From NCBI GenBank assembly GCA_021812165.1, contig JAKAOO010000002.1, forward strand, positions 1 through 53,385: 53,385 nucleotides of DNA. Direction: 5' to 3'. Both the position numbers and the translations under genes were made by a program. This document shows, in pieces, positions 19,395-31,110 of this stretch (position 1 is the first letter of the stretch; each line of letters begins with the position of its first letter). This DNA comes from Pseudomonadota bacterium (lineage in GTDB: Bacteria; Pseudomonadota; Alphaproteobacteria; ATCC43930; CGMCC-115725). The notes beneath the pieces are model-generated. The model made no database searches and was not told the DNA's origin. It worked only from the letters and a program-made list of their open reading frames with translations.

Positions 19395-20057
19395 CTAGCG
19401 ATGCTTGAAATGCGCACGCCCCGGAGCGGCGGCCGGATGGGCGGCGCCCGCATGAGGCGCGTGGAAACCGCCGAAGCGATGGATCGCAGGGGCTGGAGCG
19501 AAGTGGACAGCAGGCGAGTGGAAACCGCCGAAGCGATGGATCGCCGGGGCCGGAGCGAAGTGGGCACGGGCGTGGAAGCCGCCGAAGCGATGGACCGCGG
19601 GGGCTGGAGCGAAGTGGGCAGCGCGCGGATGTAGGGGTCCGAATCCCTGTGCTCTGAAGCGGCGGACGCGATGAATATGGTGCCGGCGGATGTGATGAAC
19701 ATGATGCAAGTGGACGCGATGAATATGATGCAAGTGGACGTGGTGAAACCGATGGCGAAAGCCAAGCCCGGCGCCAAACGGGTAGCCAAAACCGAAGCCG
19801 AAAGCCTCGTAATCCGGGCACGCGGTTTCATAGGGAAATTCCGGAAAATAGTAGTAATCGCACTGATAGTAATAGGTATCGTAATTCGGGTAATAGCGAA
19901 AAGGATTGGGCGGGTACGAACCGTATTGGGCGGTGCCGGGCAGAGCGCAGGCGGCGGTAAATCCGGAAATACCGGCGACCACGCCAAGCATCGCCGCGCG
20001 CCGAAGCCACTGCCGGATCGTGCGAGGGGGCACGAGGAGGCACGCGAGATCCCGCAT
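19395..20057 (-). CDS. His-rich repeat lipoprotein
   Basis: The frame from the ATG at 20057 encodes 220 residues. Residues 1-37 form a basic start, a hydrophobic stretch and a lipobox-like 'F-T-A-A-C', so the mature protein should be a membrane-anchored lipoprotein. A Tyr-rich segment follows ('Y-Y-P-N-Y-D-T-Y-Y-Y-Q-C-D-Y-Y-Y'), then His runs ('H-H-V-H-L-H-H-I-H-R-V-H-L-H-H-V-H-H-I'), and three repeats of an 18-19-residue unit with core 'H-F-A-P-A-P-A-I-H-R-F-G-G-F-H'. About one in five residues of the second half is His, which suggests zinc, copper or nickel binding outside the cytoplasm. No known family was recognised. Confidence 0.7.
   Translation of the reverse strand: MRDLACLLVPPRTIRQWLRRAAMLGVVAGISGFTAACALPGTAQYGSYPPNPFRYYPNYDTYYYQCDYYYFPEFPYETACPDYEAFGFGFGYPFGAGLGFRHRFHHVHLHHIHRVHLHHVHHIRRHHIHRVRRFRAQGFGPLHPRAAHFAPAPAVHRFGGFHARAHFAPAPAIHRFGGFHSPAVHFAPAPAIHRFGGFHAPHAGAAHPAAAPGRAHFKHR
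19461..19628. repeat. In-frame 54/57-bp tandem repeats within the His-rich gene
   Basis: Copies begin at 19461, 19518 and 19572 with GTGGAAACCGCCGAAGC or a one-base variant. Spacing is 57 and then 54 bases, both multiples of three, so the reading frame is kept. The repeats encode the 'H-F-A-P-A-P' units. Confidence 0.85.
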
Positions 20058-25218: not shown

Positions 25219-25261
25219 CGTCCCCGGATCAGGTCCGGGGCAGCCCCGGCGAAAGCCGGGG
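25219..25261. repeat. Palindromic repeat overlapping the amidohydrolase 3' end; possible bidirectional terminator
   Basis: CCCCGGATCAGGTCCGGGG at 25222-25240 is followed by a perfect stem CCCCGGC (25244-25250), GAAA loop, GCCGGGG (25255-25261). Such 'CCCCGG...CCGGGG' elements are scattered in alphaproteobacterial genomes. It lies between convergent genes and could stop transcription from both sides, although no T-run follows. Confidence 0.6.
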
Positions 25262-26686
25262 TCGTCGCAGGACGCGGCCTGGGCGCTCGCCCGTCGTTTT
25301 GCCTTCGCTCCAGACCGGGCGGCCGCCCACAAAGACGTGCTCGATGCCGGTCGAGGCCAGCGTCGGCTCTTCGAAGCTCGCGCGATCGCCGACGCTCGAA
25401 GGGTCGAAGACGGTGATGTCGGCCCAATTCCCGAGGGCGATCCGGCCGCGCCCTTCGAGGCCGAACCGCAGCGCCGGCAGAGAGGTCATCCGCCGCACCG
25501 CCTCTGCGAGCGGGAAAAGCCCGACTTCGCGGCTGTAATGGCCGAGAACGCGCGGGAAGGTGCCCCAGAGACGCGGATGCGGATGGCGGTCGTGAGGGAG
25601 GCCATCGGAACCGATCATCGTGTGCGCAAAGCCGAGGACCCGCCGCACATCCGCTTCGTCCATCATGAAATAGATCGCCCCTGCCGGCTTCAGCCGTTCG
25701 GCCGCCTCCTCTTCGCTCACCCCCCACTCTTTCGCGATCGCGGAAAGCTCGCGTCCGGCCGCCTCGGGGACGCTTTTCGACCAGGTGACGAGAACCCTTT
25801 CCGACGAACCGAGGCGCCCCGAATGCAACACCGTCGACGATGCGGTATAGGGATAGGCGTCGGCGCCGACCTCCTGGCGCGCCATCGCCCGCTCGAAAAG
25901 CGCCAGCGCCTCCTTCGTGCGCCCGAAATTTTCGCGCCCCGCGGCCTTCAAATGCGAGATGACGACGGGAATGCCGCCCGCGCGCCCGACGGCAAAGCTC
26001 TCTTCGAGGCTCTCTCTGAGACGAGCGCCCTCGTCGCGCATGTGCGTCGCATAAATCCCTCCGGCCTTTTTGAGGACGCGGGCGAGGGCTTCGATCTCCG
26101 CGGGCGGCGCATGGAAAGCGGGAGGATAGGCAAGCCCGCTCGACATCCCGATCGCTCCCGCCGCCAGCGCCTCTTCGAGCCCTTCCGCCATCGCGCGACG
26201 CTCCTCGCCCGAAGCCGGACGGTCGAGTTCCTTCATGGCGCCGACGCGCAGCGTCGAATGGCCGACGAGAGGGGCGGCGTTGAGTGCCGCGGGCGATGAT
26301 TCGAGCGCTTCGAGATAATCGGCAAAGCGCGGATAGCGAAAGTCTCCGGCTTCGCCCAGAAGATCGAAAGGCGGCGGCGGCGCGCTCCGAGGAACGAGGG
26401 GTGCGAGCGAGATCCCGCAATTGCCGGTGACGACCGTCGTCACGCCCTGGCTCGCCTTCATCGCCATCTCGGGATTGACGAGAAGGGCGCGGTCGTCGTG
26501 GGTATGCGCGTCGATAAAGCCGGGCGCGACCACCAGCCCCGAACAATCGATCTCGCGCGCCCCTCTCCTTCTCTCCACCTTGCCGACCGCAGCGATGCGC
26601 TCGCCCGCGATTCTGACATCGGCGCGGAACGCCGGCTTCCCGCTGCCGTCGATGACTTCGCCTCCACGCAGGATGAAATCCGTCAT
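25229..26686 (-). CDS. N-acyl-D-amino-acid deacylase-like amidohydrolase
   Basis: From the ATG at 26686 the protein is 485 residues starting MTDFILRGGEVIDGSG. Visible marks are 'G-F-I-D-A-H-T-H-D-D' (metal His pair), 'V-V-T-G-N-C-G-I-S' (a Cys typical for D-aminoacylases), 'Y-A-T-H-M-R-D-E' and 'I-S-H-L-K-A-A-G' (metal ligands), and 'M-I-G-S-D-G-L' with the catalytic Asp. Family members remove N-acyl groups from D-amino acids or act on dipeptide-like substrates. The last ~10 residues are read from a palindromic intergenic repeat, so the native stop may have been lost. It converges on the ABC importer operon. Confidence 0.9.
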   Translation of the reverse strand: MTDFILRGGEVIDGSGKPAFRADVRIAGERIAAVGKVERRRGAREIDCSGLVVAPGFIDAHTHDDRALLVNPEMAMKASQGVTTVVTGNCGISLAPLVPRSAPPPPFDLLGEAGDFRYPRFADYLEALESSPAALNAAPLVGHSTLRVGAMKELDRPASGEERRAMAEGLEEALAAGAIGMSSGLAYPPAFHAPPAEIEALARVLKKAGGIYATHMRDEGARLRESLEESFAVGRAGGIPVVISHLKAAGRENFGRTKEALALFERAMARQEVGADAYPYTASSTVLHSGRLGSSERVLVTWSKSVPEAAGRELSAIAKEWGVSEEEAAERLKPAGAIYFMMDEADVRRVLGFAHTMIGSDGLPHDRHPHPRLWGTFPRVLGHYSREVGLFPLAEAVRRMTSLPALRFGLEGRGRIALGNWADITVFDPSSVGDRASFEEPTLASTGIEHVFVGGRPVWSEGKTTGERPGRVLRRPRLSPGLPRT

Positions 26687-26876
26687 TGTGCCACCCATCG
26701 ACAACCGCCCGTTCCGCCTTCCGGAGCGAGGATCTTCCGTGAAGCAGAAATTATCGCGCCCGGCGTCAGTTCCGGCAATAGCACCGGCAATAGCACCGGC
26801 AAGCCGACGCCCGCCTTCGCACTCGATGTGACGCCGTCGGGGATCGCAACTCGATCCTTTACAAGCGGGACGATAT

Positions 26877-26890
26877 GCGATACGTATCGC
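26877..26890. promoter_or_regulatory. 14-bp perfect palindrome upstream of higB, probable HigA operator
   Basis: GCGATAC-GTATCGC is a perfect palindrome ending three bases before the higB ATG. It is flanked on both sides by CGATATG (26871-26877 and 26890-26896). A TTTACA box at 26858-26863 may be a -35 element. The position fits autorepression by HigA, as known for this antitoxin family. Confidence 0.6.
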
Positions 26891-26893
26891 GAT

Positions 26894-27175
26894 ATGATCC
26901 GCTCGTTCGCGGACAAGCGCGCGGCGGCCATCTGGATGGACCGCATGCCGAAGGGCTTTCCGAGCGATGTTGCGAAGGCGGCGCGCCGCAAATTGCGGAT
27001 GCTGGCCGCGGCAGCGCGGCTTCAGGATCTGCGAGGCCCGCCCGGAAACCGCTTCGAAGCGTTGGCGGGCGACCGGGCCGGGCAACACAGCATCCGCATC
27101 AACGACCAATGGCGCCTGTGCTTCGTCTGGCAAGACGGCGATGCATACGATGTCGAGATCGTCGATTACCATTAG
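26894..27175 (+). CDS. higB: HigB-type mRNA interferase toxin
   Basis: The 93-residue protein starts MIRSFADKRAAAIW and matches the HigB plasmid-maintenance killer family: 'R-R-K-L-R-M-L-A-A-A-A-R-L-Q-D-L-R-G-P-P-G-N-R', 'Q-H-S-I-R-I-N-D-Q-W-R-L-C-F' and 'V-E-I-V-D-Y-H' at the end. These toxins cleave mRNA on the ribosome. The ATG follows the palindrome so closely that there is no normal ribosome-binding site. HigA starts 8 bases after its stop. All core residues look intact. Confidence 0.93.
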   Translation: MIRSFADKRAAAIWMDRMPKGFPSDVAKAARRKLRMLAAAARLQDLRGPPGNRFEALAGDRAGQHSIRINDQWRLCFVWQDGDAYDVEIVDYH

Positions 27176-27183
27176 GAGAGGGA

Positions 27184-27501
27184 ATGAAGAGCATCCGTAC
27201 CGAAGACTTGGATCGGCTGGACTTGTCGGATGTCGCCGGCGCCGAACGCATCGGACCGGTGACGCCCGGTGAAGTATTGCGCCAAGACTTCATGGTGCCC
27301 CTTGGTCTATCGGGGCGCGCGCTCGCCCGCGAACTCGGCGTTCCGTCGAACCGCATCACCGAAATCGTCGCCGGTCAGCGCGCCGTGACCGCCGAAACTG
27401 CGATCCTTCTCGGAGAGCGTTTCGGAACTTCCGCGGAGTTTTGGCTCAACCTGCAGATGGCGCACGATCTCGAAGAGGCCCGCGGGCGCCGAGCGGCGTA
27501 A
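27184..27501 (+). CDS. higA: HigA-type antitoxin
   Basis: The 105-residue protein has the HigA family XRE helix-turn-helix: 'P-G-E-V-L-R-Q-D-F-M-V-P-L-G-L-S' followed by 'L-A-R-E-L-G-V-P-S-N-R-I-T-E-I-V-A-G-Q-R' and 'F-G-T-S-A-E-F-W-L-N-L-Q-M-A-H-D-L'. AGGAGAGG precedes the ATG. It neutralises HigB and represses the operon, most likely at the palindrome before higB. A degraded PIN-like gene follows 18 bases downstream. Confidence 0.94.
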   Translation: MKSIRTEDLDRLDLSDVAGAERIGPVTPGEVLRQDFMVPLGLSGRALARELGVPSNRITEIVAGQRAVTAETAILLGERFGTSAEFWLNLQMAHDLEEARGRRAA

Positions 27502-27519
27502 TTCTGCGCGCCTGATCCG

Positions 27520-28053
27520 ATGCCTCTGACGGTAACATTCGATACCAACACGCTCGACTCGGTGGTCGTGCCCGACAGGGCACAGCGCGAGAGCGGGGCA
27601 AGCGGAGTCGTCGTTCGCGATGCGATTCAGAACGGCCGCATACAGGGCTCTTTCAGTGAACGGCTTATTCCTCTGCTTCGGGTGGAATCAACATTTAGCC
27701 GTCATGGCCGGACTTGACCGGCGGATGAAATCGGCAAGCGCGGCGTGGGTGAAGCAGTCGCCGTCAAGCTCGGCTTGGAACTTAGCAGGCGCGATGGCGC
27801 GCCTCTGGAATTGTTCCACCAAGGGCTTGGACGCGCGCGGAACACATTCGAGCGCAAGAAGGTGATAAAGGCGATTGGCGAGTGGGCCGACGGCGACAGC
27901 GTCGCGGCCCATTACGGATTTGGCATCGAGCTATCTTGCAGCGACGATTTCGGAAAGGGGGGCTCAAACCCGTCGGTGCTCGACCCCAACAACCGGGGAT
28001 GGCTCACGCCACAGTTCGGCATGCAGTTCGTTACGCTAGCCGAGTTGGCATAG
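27520..28053 (+). pseudogene. Degraded PIN-like protein gene
   Basis: The frame begins MPLTVTFDTNTLDSVV, a PIN-domain-like start with an acidic active-site Asp, and ends 'A-H-Y-G-F-G-I-E-L' to 'F-V-T-L-A-E-L-A', which also looks like the end of such proteins. In between, at about 27670-27725, the frame passes through a piece resembling a rhizobial intergenic repeat (CGTCATGGCCGGACTTGACC) and meets a TGA at 27715-27717. The two halves remain in one frame but total only about 178 codons, so a central part appears deleted. The TGA is inside the foreign piece and not at a redox residue, so I read it as a true stop. It may have been part of the higBA neighbourhood. Confidence 0.6.
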
Positions 28054-28191
28054 AGAGTAGCCGGTTGAACCGCCGGCCCCCACCGGCTTCGCCGCGCACT
28101 CCGCCGCACAAGGACCGAGCGTCTCCTCTCGCGGCGCAGAGAATGGTCAGCGCTGCCGCGGCAGGGCCGAGGCGAGCGACCATCCGCTTGG

Positions 28192-29373
28192 CTACTGAAG
28201 CGGCTCTTTGCGCAGGATATTGAAGTCGCAGCCGGGAGGCGTGCCGCAATTCCTTTCTTCCCTCTCTCGATCGTGCCGCGGCTTCTCCATTATAGCCTGC
28301 ACTTCGATGCAAAAAGCCGGTATCACCTCGCCCACTCGGCGATTGAGCCGCCACCACCAGCGATAATTGTCGAGCGATTGCAGCAGCCCGCCGGAAATCA
28401 CCCGAAAACCCCTGACCTTCACCACTCTGAGGCCAGAGTGGGTCTTCATCGCCGAAAGGAACGAGAAGAGAGAAAACGCCTGGCGGTGGCCCCGAGACTG
28501 GCGGCGCGAAAGGAGGGCATCGATCTTCGGAACGACGTGCTTTCTTATCAAATGGAGCGGCGGCGGAAAGATGGGGACGCCGACGATCGCCCGGCCGCCC
28601 GGCTTGAGGACGCGACCCAGCGTCGCAATTGCGAGATCGATCTCGTCGAGGTGCTCCAGCACCTGCTCGCAAACGACGACATCGTAAGCATTCGATCGGA
28701 TCTCCGGATACCCGCCCACGAGATCGCCGACAAAGACCTCCTCATATGCCTCTCTTTGGTAGATCTTCGCGCCGTCGAGGTTGGCGCCCGAGACAGCCAA
28801 CTTCTCGAAATGAGGCTTGGCTGCGAGGTGGCGGAGCTCGGCTGCGACGCCGCATCCGATGACGAGCAGCCGCAGCTTTTCGCATCCCGCGGCGCCTGCC
28901 CAATCGCTGATATCCTCAGCCAACGCGTCGTAGCGGGATTGGCGCAGGCTATAAAACTGCCGGCGCGCAGGATCGACGCCGAACGCCAAGGGCGGTCTTG
29001 AGAATTCGTCGCCGAGGGGGCTCGGCAACTTCGGTCCACGCCCCTGCGGATCGCCGGGAAAGACGCGCTCCGCCGACGCCCGATGCTCCGCCATCACGTG
29101 AGAGGGCACCAAAAGGCGGGCAACAAACAAGCCGAGCGCGAGGACTGCGGCATCGTCGAAGAAGCCGATCACCGGGAGATAGTCGGGCAACAGTTGGAAG
29201 GGCGATGCGACGTAACCGAGCGAGATGACCGCTGCGCCTCTCACGAGCCACGGTGTGCGTCGATCGCGGGCTAGGAGGTACATCACATAGGCGCCACGCA
29301 AAACGAATTTCGCAGACGTTTTCGCCCGCGCGGTCACCCATCTCCACGGTAGGACGCCCTCTATCCGCGGCAT
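28192..29373 (-). CDS. DUF1232-methyltransferase fusion protein with an IlvD-like tail
   Basis: The 393-residue protein has three parts. Residues 20-105 look like a DUF1232 (YkvA) membrane segment: 'R-D-R-R-T-P-W-L-V-R-G-A-A' and 'S-P-F-Q-L-L-P-D-Y-L-P-V-I-G-F-F-D-D'. Residues about 140-360 are a class I SAM methyltransferase ('L-L-V-I-G-C-G-V-A-A-E-L', 'V-V-V-C-E-Q-V-L-E-H-L', 'V-L-K-P-G-G-R-A-I-V-G-V-P'). The last 13 residues, 'G-C-D-F-N-I-L-R-K-E-P-L-Q', match the C-terminus of the neighbouring dehydratase. The DUF1232 part suggests anchoring at the inner membrane, with methylation of a lipid or surface molecule; this is inference. The gene starts 36 bases after the dehydratase stop. Confidence 0.82.
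   Translation of the reverse strand: MPRIEGVLPWRWVTARAKTSAKFVLRGAYVMYLLARDRRTPWLVRGAAVISLGYVASPFQLLPDYLPVIGFFDDAAVLALGLFVARLLVPSHVMAEHRASAERVFPGDPQGRGPKLPSPLGDEFSRPPLAFGVDPARRQFYSLRQSRYDALAEDISDWAGAAGCEKLRLLVIGCGVAAELRHLAAKPHFEKLAVSGANLDGAKIYQREAYEEVFVGDLVGGYPEIRSNAYDVVVCEQVLEHLDEIDLAIATLGRVLKPGGRAIVGVPIFPPPLHLIRKHVVPKIDALLSRRQSRGHRQAFSLFSFLSAMKTHSGLRVVKVRGFRVISGGLLQSLDNYRWWWRLNRRVGEVIPAFCIEVQAIMEKPRHDREREERNCGTPPGCDFNILRKEPLQ
28210..28234. repeat. Direct repeat, copy 1 (dehydratase 3' end fragment)
   Basis: This 25-base segment inside the 3' end of the methyltransferase gene matches 29434-29458 in the dehydratase gene at 24 of 25 positions. Both encode 'G-C-D-F-N-x-L-R'. The two copies are 1.2 kb apart and bracket the methyltransferase gene. 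Confidence 0.85.
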
Positions 29374-29409
29374 GTCACGCCAGATCTGCGTGCAGGATGA
29401 AACCGGTCA

Positions 29410-31110
29410 TCATTCCTCCGGAAGTGGGGTTCGGCGCAGGAAATTGAAGTCGCAGCCGCGGTCGGCCTGCAAAATCTCCTGGCGGTAAAGCCTTGCATAG
29501 CCGCGCGGCGGCATGGGCGGGGGCGCCCACTCGCGCCGCGCCAGATCTTCCGGCGAGACGAGGAGGTCGAGACGGCGCTCCTTGACCGAAAGGCGGATCT
29601 TGTCGCCCGTTCGCACCCGGCCGATCGGGCCGCCGCTCGCGGCGTCGGGCGTCACGTGAAGGACGATCGAGCCATAGGCGGTCCCGCTCATCCGCGCGTC
29701 GGAGATGCGCACCATGTCGCGGACCCCGCCGCGGGCGAGCTTTTGCGGGATCGGCAGATAGCCGGCTTCGGGCATCGCCGCGGGGCTCGCCGGGCCCGCA
29801 TTCTGCAAGACGAGGAAATCCTCGGGCGAGACCTCGAGTTCGGGGTCGTCGATCCGCGCCGAGAGATCTTCGAGCGAAGAAAAGACGACCGCGCGCCCCT
29901 CTTTTTCGAACAGCCGCGGGTCGGCGGCCGAGCGCTTGAAGATCGCCCCTTTGGGCGCGAGCGAGCCGAAGAGGGCGACGAGCCCGCCCTTCTCTTGGAA
30001 CGGCTCGGCGAGAGGCCGGATCACCGCGCGGTCGACGGGTTCCGCGGGCGCGGCGAGGCGCTCGCCGAGGGTGTCCCCCGCAACCGTCAGGCAATCGAGG
30101 TGAAGGAGCGGCTTCAACTCGCGCAACACGGCGCCCAACCCTCCGGCGGCGAAAAGATCCTCCATGTAATGGGCGCCGGTCGGCTTCAGATCGACGAGGA
30201 CCGGGGTTTCCTCGGAAAGTTCGTTGAGGCGATCGAGCGAAAGGTCGATCCCGGCGCGGCCCGCGATCGCCGTCAAGTGGATGACCGCGTTGGTCGAGCC
30301 GCCGATCGCCAGAAGCGTGCGCAGAGCGTTTTCGACCGCCTCTCTGGTGACGATGCGCTCGGGGGTGAGGCCGCTTCCCGCCAGCGCCATCGCCGCCGCT
30401 CCGCTCGCTTCCGCCGCCCGCAGCCGGTCGGCGTGAACGGCGGGGATCGCGGCGGTGCCGGGAAGGATCATGCCGAGCGCCTCGACGAGCGAGGCCATCG
30501 TGCTCGCGGTCCCCATGACGGCGCAGGTCCCCGCGGTCGTCGCGAGATGGCTCTCGACCTCGGCGATTTCGTCGGACGCGAGTTCGCCGGCGCGAAACTT
30601 CGCCCAAAAGCGCCGGCAATCGGTGCAGGCGCCGAGCCGCTCGCCGCGCCAGCGCGCGGACAGCATCGGCCCGGCGACGAGAAGGGTCGCCGGACGGCCC
30701 GCCGAGAGGGCGCCCATGAGCGCGGCCGGCACCGTCTTGTCGCAGCCGCAAAGGAGGACGACGGCGTCCATCGGCTGGGCGCGGATCATCTCCTCGATGT
30801 CCATCGCCATCAGATTGCGGAACATGAGGCTCGTCGGGGAAAGAAAGACCTCGCCCAAGGAGATCGTCGGAAAGACGAGAGGCAAACCGCCCGCCGCGAG
30901 AACCCCGCGCTTCACCGCCTCGATCATCTCGGGAAAATGGCGATGGCAGTTGTTGAAACCCGAGGAGCTGTCGGCGATGCCGATGACGGGGCGGGAGAGC
31001 ATTTCGCTCGAATACCCCATCGACCGGGCGAAGGAGCGGCGCAGATAAAGCGCAAAATCGGGGTCTCCATAATGAGTGAGCCCGCGCTCCAGCCCCAAAG
31101 ATCCAGTCAT
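29410..31110 (-). CDS. IlvD/EDD-family dehydratase (sugar-acid or dihydroxy-acid type)
   Basis: The ATG at 31110, close behind GGAGGAG, gives 566 residues. Three Cys positions typical of the [2Fe-2S] branch are present: Cys55 ('N-N-C-H-R-H'), Cys123 ('C-G-C-D-K-T-V-P-A') and Cys196 ('G-T-C-A-V-M-G-T-A-S-T-M'). Their spacing equals that of L-arabinonate dehydratase. These enzymes remove water from sugar acids or dihydroxy acids. The housekeeping IlvD usually has other residues around the first Cys, so a sugar-acid catabolic role is more likely. The gene is divergent from an XRE regulator gene, 313 bases away, and is followed by the methyltransferase gene that shares its tail. Confidence 0.9.
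   Translation of the reverse strand: MTGSLGLERGLTHYGDPDFALYLRRSFARSMGYSSEMLSRPVIGIADSSSGFNNCHRHFPEMIEAVKRGVLAAGGLPLVFPTISLGEVFLSPTSLMFRNLMAMDIEEMIRAQPMDAVVLLCGCDKTVPAALMGALSAGRPATLLVAGPMLSARWRGERLGACTDCRRFWAKFRAGELASDEIAEVESHLATTAGTCAVMGTASTMASLVEALGMILPGTAAIPAVHADRLRAAEASGAAAMALAGSGLTPERIVTREAVENALRTLLAIGGSTNAVIHLTAIAGRAGIDLSLDRLNELSEETPVLVDLKPTGAHYMEDLFAAGGLGAVLRELKPLLHLDCLTVAGDTLGERLAAPAEPVDRAVIRPLAEPFQEKGGLVALFGSLAPKGAIFKRSAADPRLFEKEGRAVVFSSLEDLSARIDDPELEVSPEDFLVLQNAGPASPAAMPEAGYLPIPQKLARGGVRDMVRISDARMSGTAYGSIVLHVTPDAASGGPIGRVRTGDKIRLSVKERRLDLLVSPEDLARREWAPPPMPPRGYARLYRQEILQADRGCDFNFLRRTPLPEE
29434..29458. repeat. Direct repeat, copy 2 (native dehydratase 3' end)
   Basis: This is the segment of the dehydratase gene that encodes 'G-C-D-F-N-F-L-R-R', identical but for one base to 28210-28234. 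The gene context suggests that this copy is the original and the other was brought by duplication or recombination. Confidence 0.85.

Follow-up and report, generated by a model that had tools for sequence, protein, structure and literature searches.

A transposase leaves its target sequence on both sides of the DNA that it inserts, and such target-site duplications usually measure a few base pairs. Homology-facilitated illegitimate recombination of foreign DNA would introduce a gene whose joints share short stretches of identity. The closest description that we found for the kind of scar reported here is that of transposed genes in Arabidopsis (Woodhouse et al. 2010; PMC2869330). There, direct repeats of genic target sequence, 34 to 550 bp long in Table 4 of that study, often lie on either side of the transposed genes (PMC2869330). 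The repeat was present at the orthologous gene-free site in 5/9 cases and the flanks were genic in 5/9, and the repeats were explained by insertion of circular products (PMC2869330).

We analyzed a stretch of 53,385 bp (contig JAKAOO010000002.1 of assembly GCA_021812165.1, Alphaproteobacteria), referred to here as the window, in which a methyltransferase gene stands between a dehydratase gene and an amidohydrolase gene. As in the Arabidopsis cases, a single gene appears at a new place between direct repeats (67 bp, 53/67 identical), and the elements of the repeat occur once at the gene-free orthologous site, here in two related genomes (G013 and G001). Unlike those cases, the host is a bacterium, no parental site was found, the repeat forms the end of the inserted gene's own reading frame, and its right copy appears to have been split later. 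The presence of the target on both sides of the insert is shared with transposase target-site duplication. In contrast to a transposon or IS insertion, however, the duplication spans 67 bp, the frames scanned contained no transposase, leaving the methyltransferase as the sole recognized gene of the insert, and no inverted repeats of at least 18 nt were found at the insert ends. The comparison with homology-facilitated illegitimate recombination differs in that the present locus comes without a known donor sequence with which the joints could be compared.

In the literature, which was covered only in part and therefore weighs little as negative evidence, we found no bacterial precedent of this exact scar; the same partial coverage yielded nothing on DUF1232 combined with a methyltransferase. 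The locus would be a clear example of single-gene acquisition by a bacterium in the absence of a visible mobile element, with the target duplicated on both sides and the insertion common to sister species and missing from relatives. It suggests that a duplicated target can leave both disrupted neighbors whole and give the newcomer an operon place and a stop codon. As one case with little bearing on function, it is of modest interest as a relic of gene gain.

The duplicated gene junction

Three genes on the minus strand make up the locus. The first encodes an IlvD/Edd-type dehydratase of 566 aa (29410..31110; PF00920, 1.2e-104; PF24877, 9.6e-53), which scores 790.9 bits against the NF004784 'dihydroxy-acid dehydratase' subfamily profile (cut-off, 539). 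Behind it lies a gene for a protein of 393 aa (28192..29373), in which Pfam places DUF1232 (YkvA; PF06803, 3.6e-10) and then a class I SAM methyltransferase domain (PF08241, 9.4e-10) in a single frame; against solved structures, the methyltransferase domain gave weak matches only (best E, 0.003). The third is an amidohydrolase-family gene of 485 aa (25229..26686; PF07969, 2.7e-37), whose best NCBIfam profile, NF006560, was matched with a score under its cut-off.

The dehydratase and methyltransferase genes end alike. Positions 29416..29458 (copy A) and 28192..28234 (copy B) are identical at 34/43 bases (79% over 43 nt), with a core in which 24/25 bases agree (29434-29458 and 28210-28234). Both copies are the 3' ends of minus-strand genes and are read in the same frame, as GCDFNFLRRTPLPEE and GCDFNILRKEPLQ, each followed by a stop; the dehydratase C-terminus reads ...ADRGCDFNFLRRTPLPEE and that of the DUF1232-methyltransferase ...TPPGCDFNILRKEPLQ, copy B providing the last 13 codons and the stop of the latter. 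The 25-base match and the shared ending had both been reported in a first-pass annotation of the window, and both were confirmed, coordinates and identity included.

Apart from the tail pair and two tandem arrays, the window contains no same-strand 25-mers that match each other with 1 mismatch or none, and 20/20 third-order Markov simulations of the window lacked such a pair. A search of the organism's own 3.66-Mb draft assembly for the degenerate core (at most 2 mismatches) returned exactly two places and no third, and a reversed-pattern control search returned 0. The tail DNA motif, present twice in the window, occurred once in each of 19/19 stretches of 1.8-6.2 kb fetched around other dehydratases.

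The tail is the dehydratase's own. A family-wide search located dehydratases at 36 places in 27/39 genomes, of which 30 were read and the other 6 left out; one of those read was cut off before the tail. All 29/29 tails read carried the motif, as GCDF (27) or GCDL (2), followed by a short stretch.

A second scar was found directly behind the dehydratase stop, before the methyltransferase. The 24 bases at 29392..29415 on the minus strand (ATGACCGGTTTCATCCTGC, with an ATG at 29410) read MTGFILHADLA and a stop, and resemble the head of the amidohydrolase (ATGACGGATTTCATCCTGC), whose start now lies 2.7 kb further on. After the ATG, the stub agrees with the amidohydrolase head at 16/21 bases. In a comparison with all 1266 ATGs of the window on both strands, unrelated ATGs reached at most 12, and only the stub itself and the amidohydrolase exceeded that value; in local alignment, 9/2000 shuffles scored as well. 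We also considered the stub as a second dehydratase head, both beginning with MMTG behind GGAGGA, and rejected this with 9/21 agreements against the amidohydrolase's 16/21. The methyltransferase may be translated by re-initiation behind the dehydratase, since the stub's frame of 11 codons stops 1 nt before the methyltransferase ATG.

Tail and stub together form a left junction copy of 67 bp (29392..29458, minus strand), which begins with copy A and holds a dehydratase tail and an amidohydrolase head. Joining copy B (28192-28234), as the first part, to the working head of the amidohydrolase (26668-26691, minus strand), as the second, gives a right junction copy that matches the left one at 53/67 positions. 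On the left, tail and head adjoin directly; on the right, their order is preserved, with a segment at 26692..28191 separating them by 1500 bp. The complete scar is thus a duplicated gene junction and not merely a duplicated tail: the first-pass annotation had correctly taken the duplicated stretch for the dehydratase tail, but had missed the stub and with it the wider extent, across the dehydratase/amidohydrolase junction.

Relatives with and without the methyltransferase

Empty sites, which the first-pass annotation had suggested looking for, are present in relatives. G013 and G001 have no methyltransferase between dehydratase and amidohydrolase, and each locus has one dehydratase tail and one amidohydrolase head. 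The spacers between the last aligned dehydratase codon and the amidohydrolase are longer (85 bp in G013 and 217 bp in G001), so that these junctions are not base-for-base equal to that of the window. Generally, an amidohydrolase match was obtained in 8/20 loci searched; in the other 12/20, the amidohydrolase was not in the fetched stretch, some of these stretches being cut short by the end of a contig. Dehydratase and amidohydrolase are about 1 kb apart in G002, and other sequence separates them in G014, G032, and G028.

A search of 38 other genomes of the family yielded four relatives of the methyltransferase at E<=1e-20. Three of them (G032, G062, and G061) lie on contigs different from that of their dehydratase and have neither the dehydratase-type tail nor DUF1232. 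The first-pass annotation had proposed to align homologues for absence of the tail; it is indeed missing from these three, and none of the homologues found carries the same tail away from a dehydratase. As a side observation, of the family genomes searched, only G000, the window's genome, and G005 showed the DUF1232-methyltransferase fusion; in G032, G061, and G062, the relatives are methyltransferases alone.

The fourth relative, in G005, occupies the same place as in the window. Dehydratase, methyltransferase (73% identical to that of the window), and amidohydrolase follow one another there, with no higBA segment, and the G005 protein aligns with the window's over both the DUF1232 and the methyltransferase parts. 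The dehydratase tree groups G000 with G005 as sisters (support, 100/99), within a 12-row clade whose inner order it does not resolve. Since the gene order is shared with this sister, where higBA is absent, the methyltransferase most likely entered in the common ancestor of the two, and higBA later in the window's lineage. A weaker stub is seen at the same place in G005. It agrees with the window's amidohydrolase head at 14/21 bases, a value reached by 2/1266 ATGs of the window, and with its own amidohydrolase head at 11/21; in local alignment, 151/2000 and 331/2000 shuffles, respectively, were as good.

Across the class, 1/385 genomes, the window's own, had an orthologue of the methyltransferase at E<=1e-30 among the matches listed, in which at most 4 candidates were scored per genome. 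Among named genome contigs, a search that may omit records near the window's genome, the sole locus was a 34-residue match in Sinobaca, which is not an orthologue. A plasmid donor was rejected as well: 27 plasmid records match, 0 of them with 80% coverage of the protein, and in the 8 listed the match is confined to the YkvA part.

A probable insertion and competing histories

We consider it probable that the methyltransferase entered the junction with a target duplication of about 67 bp in the common ancestor of the two species. In an earlier ancestor, the dehydratase gene would have been followed directly by the amidohydrolase gene, and a DNA segment with little beyond the DUF1232-methyltransferase gene would have been inserted where the two meet. 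About 67 bp of target, namely, the 15 codons that end the dehydratase and the 6 that open the amidohydrolase, would thereby have been duplicated to both sides. The left copy would have kept the dehydratase whole and left the amidohydrolase stub behind; the right copy would have kept the amidohydrolase whole, its dehydratase stub becoming the in-frame C-terminus and stop of the methyltransferase. The 1.5-kb higBA segment would have entered the right copy later, in the window's lineage only. We infer that a single event lies behind both duplicated pieces and that it is older than the split of the two species. That the methyltransferase was inserted behind the dehydratase, as the first-pass annotation had proposed, is supported by the empty sites and by the tail-free homologues elsewhere.

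The inserted segment (about 28235-29391), which holds the methyltransferase frame, is gene-sized: the left edge lies 18 bp ahead of the methyltransferase ATG, the right edge 13 codons short of the stop codon. It would have arrived as a circle or fragment integrated by short homology, or through a tandem duplication followed by deletion. No recombinase was identified, nor was a donor locus, the homologues in G032, G061, and G062 being without the tail. Ku was found in 6/9 genomes of the genus; it was not found in the draft genomes of the two carriers, G000 (95.9% complete) and G005 (84%), or in that of G007. End joining by Ku/LigD (NHEJ) is thus unsupported in the carriers, and the ancestor may have had Ku. 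The fused tail itself is most likely a passive scar, probably without special function.

It is unlikely, but has to be reckoned with, that two events were involved, in which the methyltransferase came first, as seen in G005, and a later template switch at CGGCTGCG copied the tail in the window's lineage only. In favor of such a sequence, the methyltransferase ends of G000 and G005 share TTGCGGCNCGCNTCCCGGCTGCG (21/23) and then diverge, and CGGCTGCG, which is found at these ends, also occurs in the dehydratase tail. The G005 end agrees with the window's tail up to GGCTGCG, after which there is a stop; the shared GGCTGCG lies 42 bp before the amidohydrolase ATG in G005, not far from the 47 bp seen in the left copies. 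Past GGCTGCG, the right flank in G005 resembles the dehydratase tail no better than shuffles do, the fraction of shuffles as good being 0.47-0.84 in global and 0.15-0.81 in local alignment. G005's own dehydratase tail matches the methyltransferase end with a score of 14, in another register and with gaps. This score was reached by 2/2000 shuffles, by 0/504 other same-strand windows of the G005 contig, by 5/539 opposite-strand windows, and by 10/2666 plus-strand windows of the stretch analyzed here, and the tails of 11 other genomes scored only 7-11 against the same G005 end. These alignments disagree: G005 may have a decayed tail, at best barely recognizable. Either most of the tail has disappeared from G005, or the window's lineage acquired it later. 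The claim of the first-pass annotation that the methyltransferase was fused to a second copy of the tail stands as to the fusion, which may be younger than the insertion, as the G005 end differs.

The age of copy B bears on the same choice. Between the two species, the three genes have diverged by 37-44% at fourfold sites, and therefore an unconstrained copy as old as the split would be expected to have changed, in the window's lineage, at about 22-26% of its positions. Only 1/25 core bases of copy B differs from copy A, for which P is about 0.005-0.018 under neutral decay since the split, and this near-perfect core suggests youth, as expected if the tail was copied late. Over their last bases, however, copies A and B differ at 8/18, which does not look young, and a separate accident would have had to add precisely the piece that a junction duplication with a stub predicts. 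Copy B is either younger or was held back by selection or gene conversion, and the history may have involved a single event followed by uneven decay, two events, or a short gene conversion. We favor one event on grounds of parsimony, since both stubs would follow from a single junction duplication.

More doubtful is that copy B is the relic of a full second dehydratase, left by a tandem duplication in which the body of the second gene was replaced by the methyltransferase. The joint of such a duplication would also leave an amidohydrolase stub behind the first copy, and the differences between copies A and B (1/25 in the core and 7/15 in the bases next to it) mirror those between functional tails of different species, copy A and the G005 tail differing at 2/25 and 7/15. 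The 20 loci examined by tblastn, some of which end soon after the gene, nevertheless show one dehydratase match each, and the interval from the stub to the methyltransferase start showed no trace of a dehydratase, its 18 bases being too few to judge.

It seems quite improbable to us that the tail was kept by selection, the methyltransferase using its GCDFN end, for example, in docking with the dehydratase complex. Such selection would account for a copy B core that is better preserved than neutral decay predicts, and the insertion would then amount to the one-step creation of a functional C-terminus from duplicated target DNA.

An assembly artefact in the form of a chimeric contig is very improbable: the draft assembly comprises 312 contigs, but another species, G005, shows the same gene order with a clearly diverged methyltransferase protein (73% identity), and the two copies in the window are not identical. 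Chance or convergence on the GCDFN motif is already contradicted, for although the core codons are strongly constrained in dehydratases and high identity is easily retained once there, the tail is unique in window and assembly, did not arise in the simulations (0/20), lies in frame at the 3' ends of neighboring genes, is missing from the three methyltransferases at other sites, and has a second scar alongside.

The higBA segment

Within the 1.5-kb segment interrupting the right junction copy lie two plus-strand genes, a HigB gene (26894-27175; PF05015, 1.6e-18) and a HigA gene (27184-27501; TIGR02607, 1.6e-28, over the cut-off). From these profile matches and their order, a HigB-like toxin followed by a HigA antitoxin, they are predicted to form a HigBA type II toxin-antitoxin pair. 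The operon runs on the other strand. In G005, there is no space for the segment and no DNA that matches it; partial DNA matches occur at other places in relatives.

Two frames without a known family follow, one at 27520-27717 (MPLTVTFDTNTLDSVV...) and the other, of 102 aa and without a Pfam match, at 27745-28053. They may represent one gene broken at a dispersed repeat of about 57 bp, a truncated copy of which lies at about 27665-27719. The genome has this repeat at 10 places, including that in the window, and it looks like a small non-autonomous (REP/MITE-like) element. In 8/9 of the other copies, it continues with a similar GC-rich stretch (CGGCCATCCACGTG or close to it), at which the window copy breaks off. 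Elsewhere in the window, the two tandem arrays adjoin each other (19455-19622 and 19664-19747); their periods, 57 and 24 bp, are each divisible by three.
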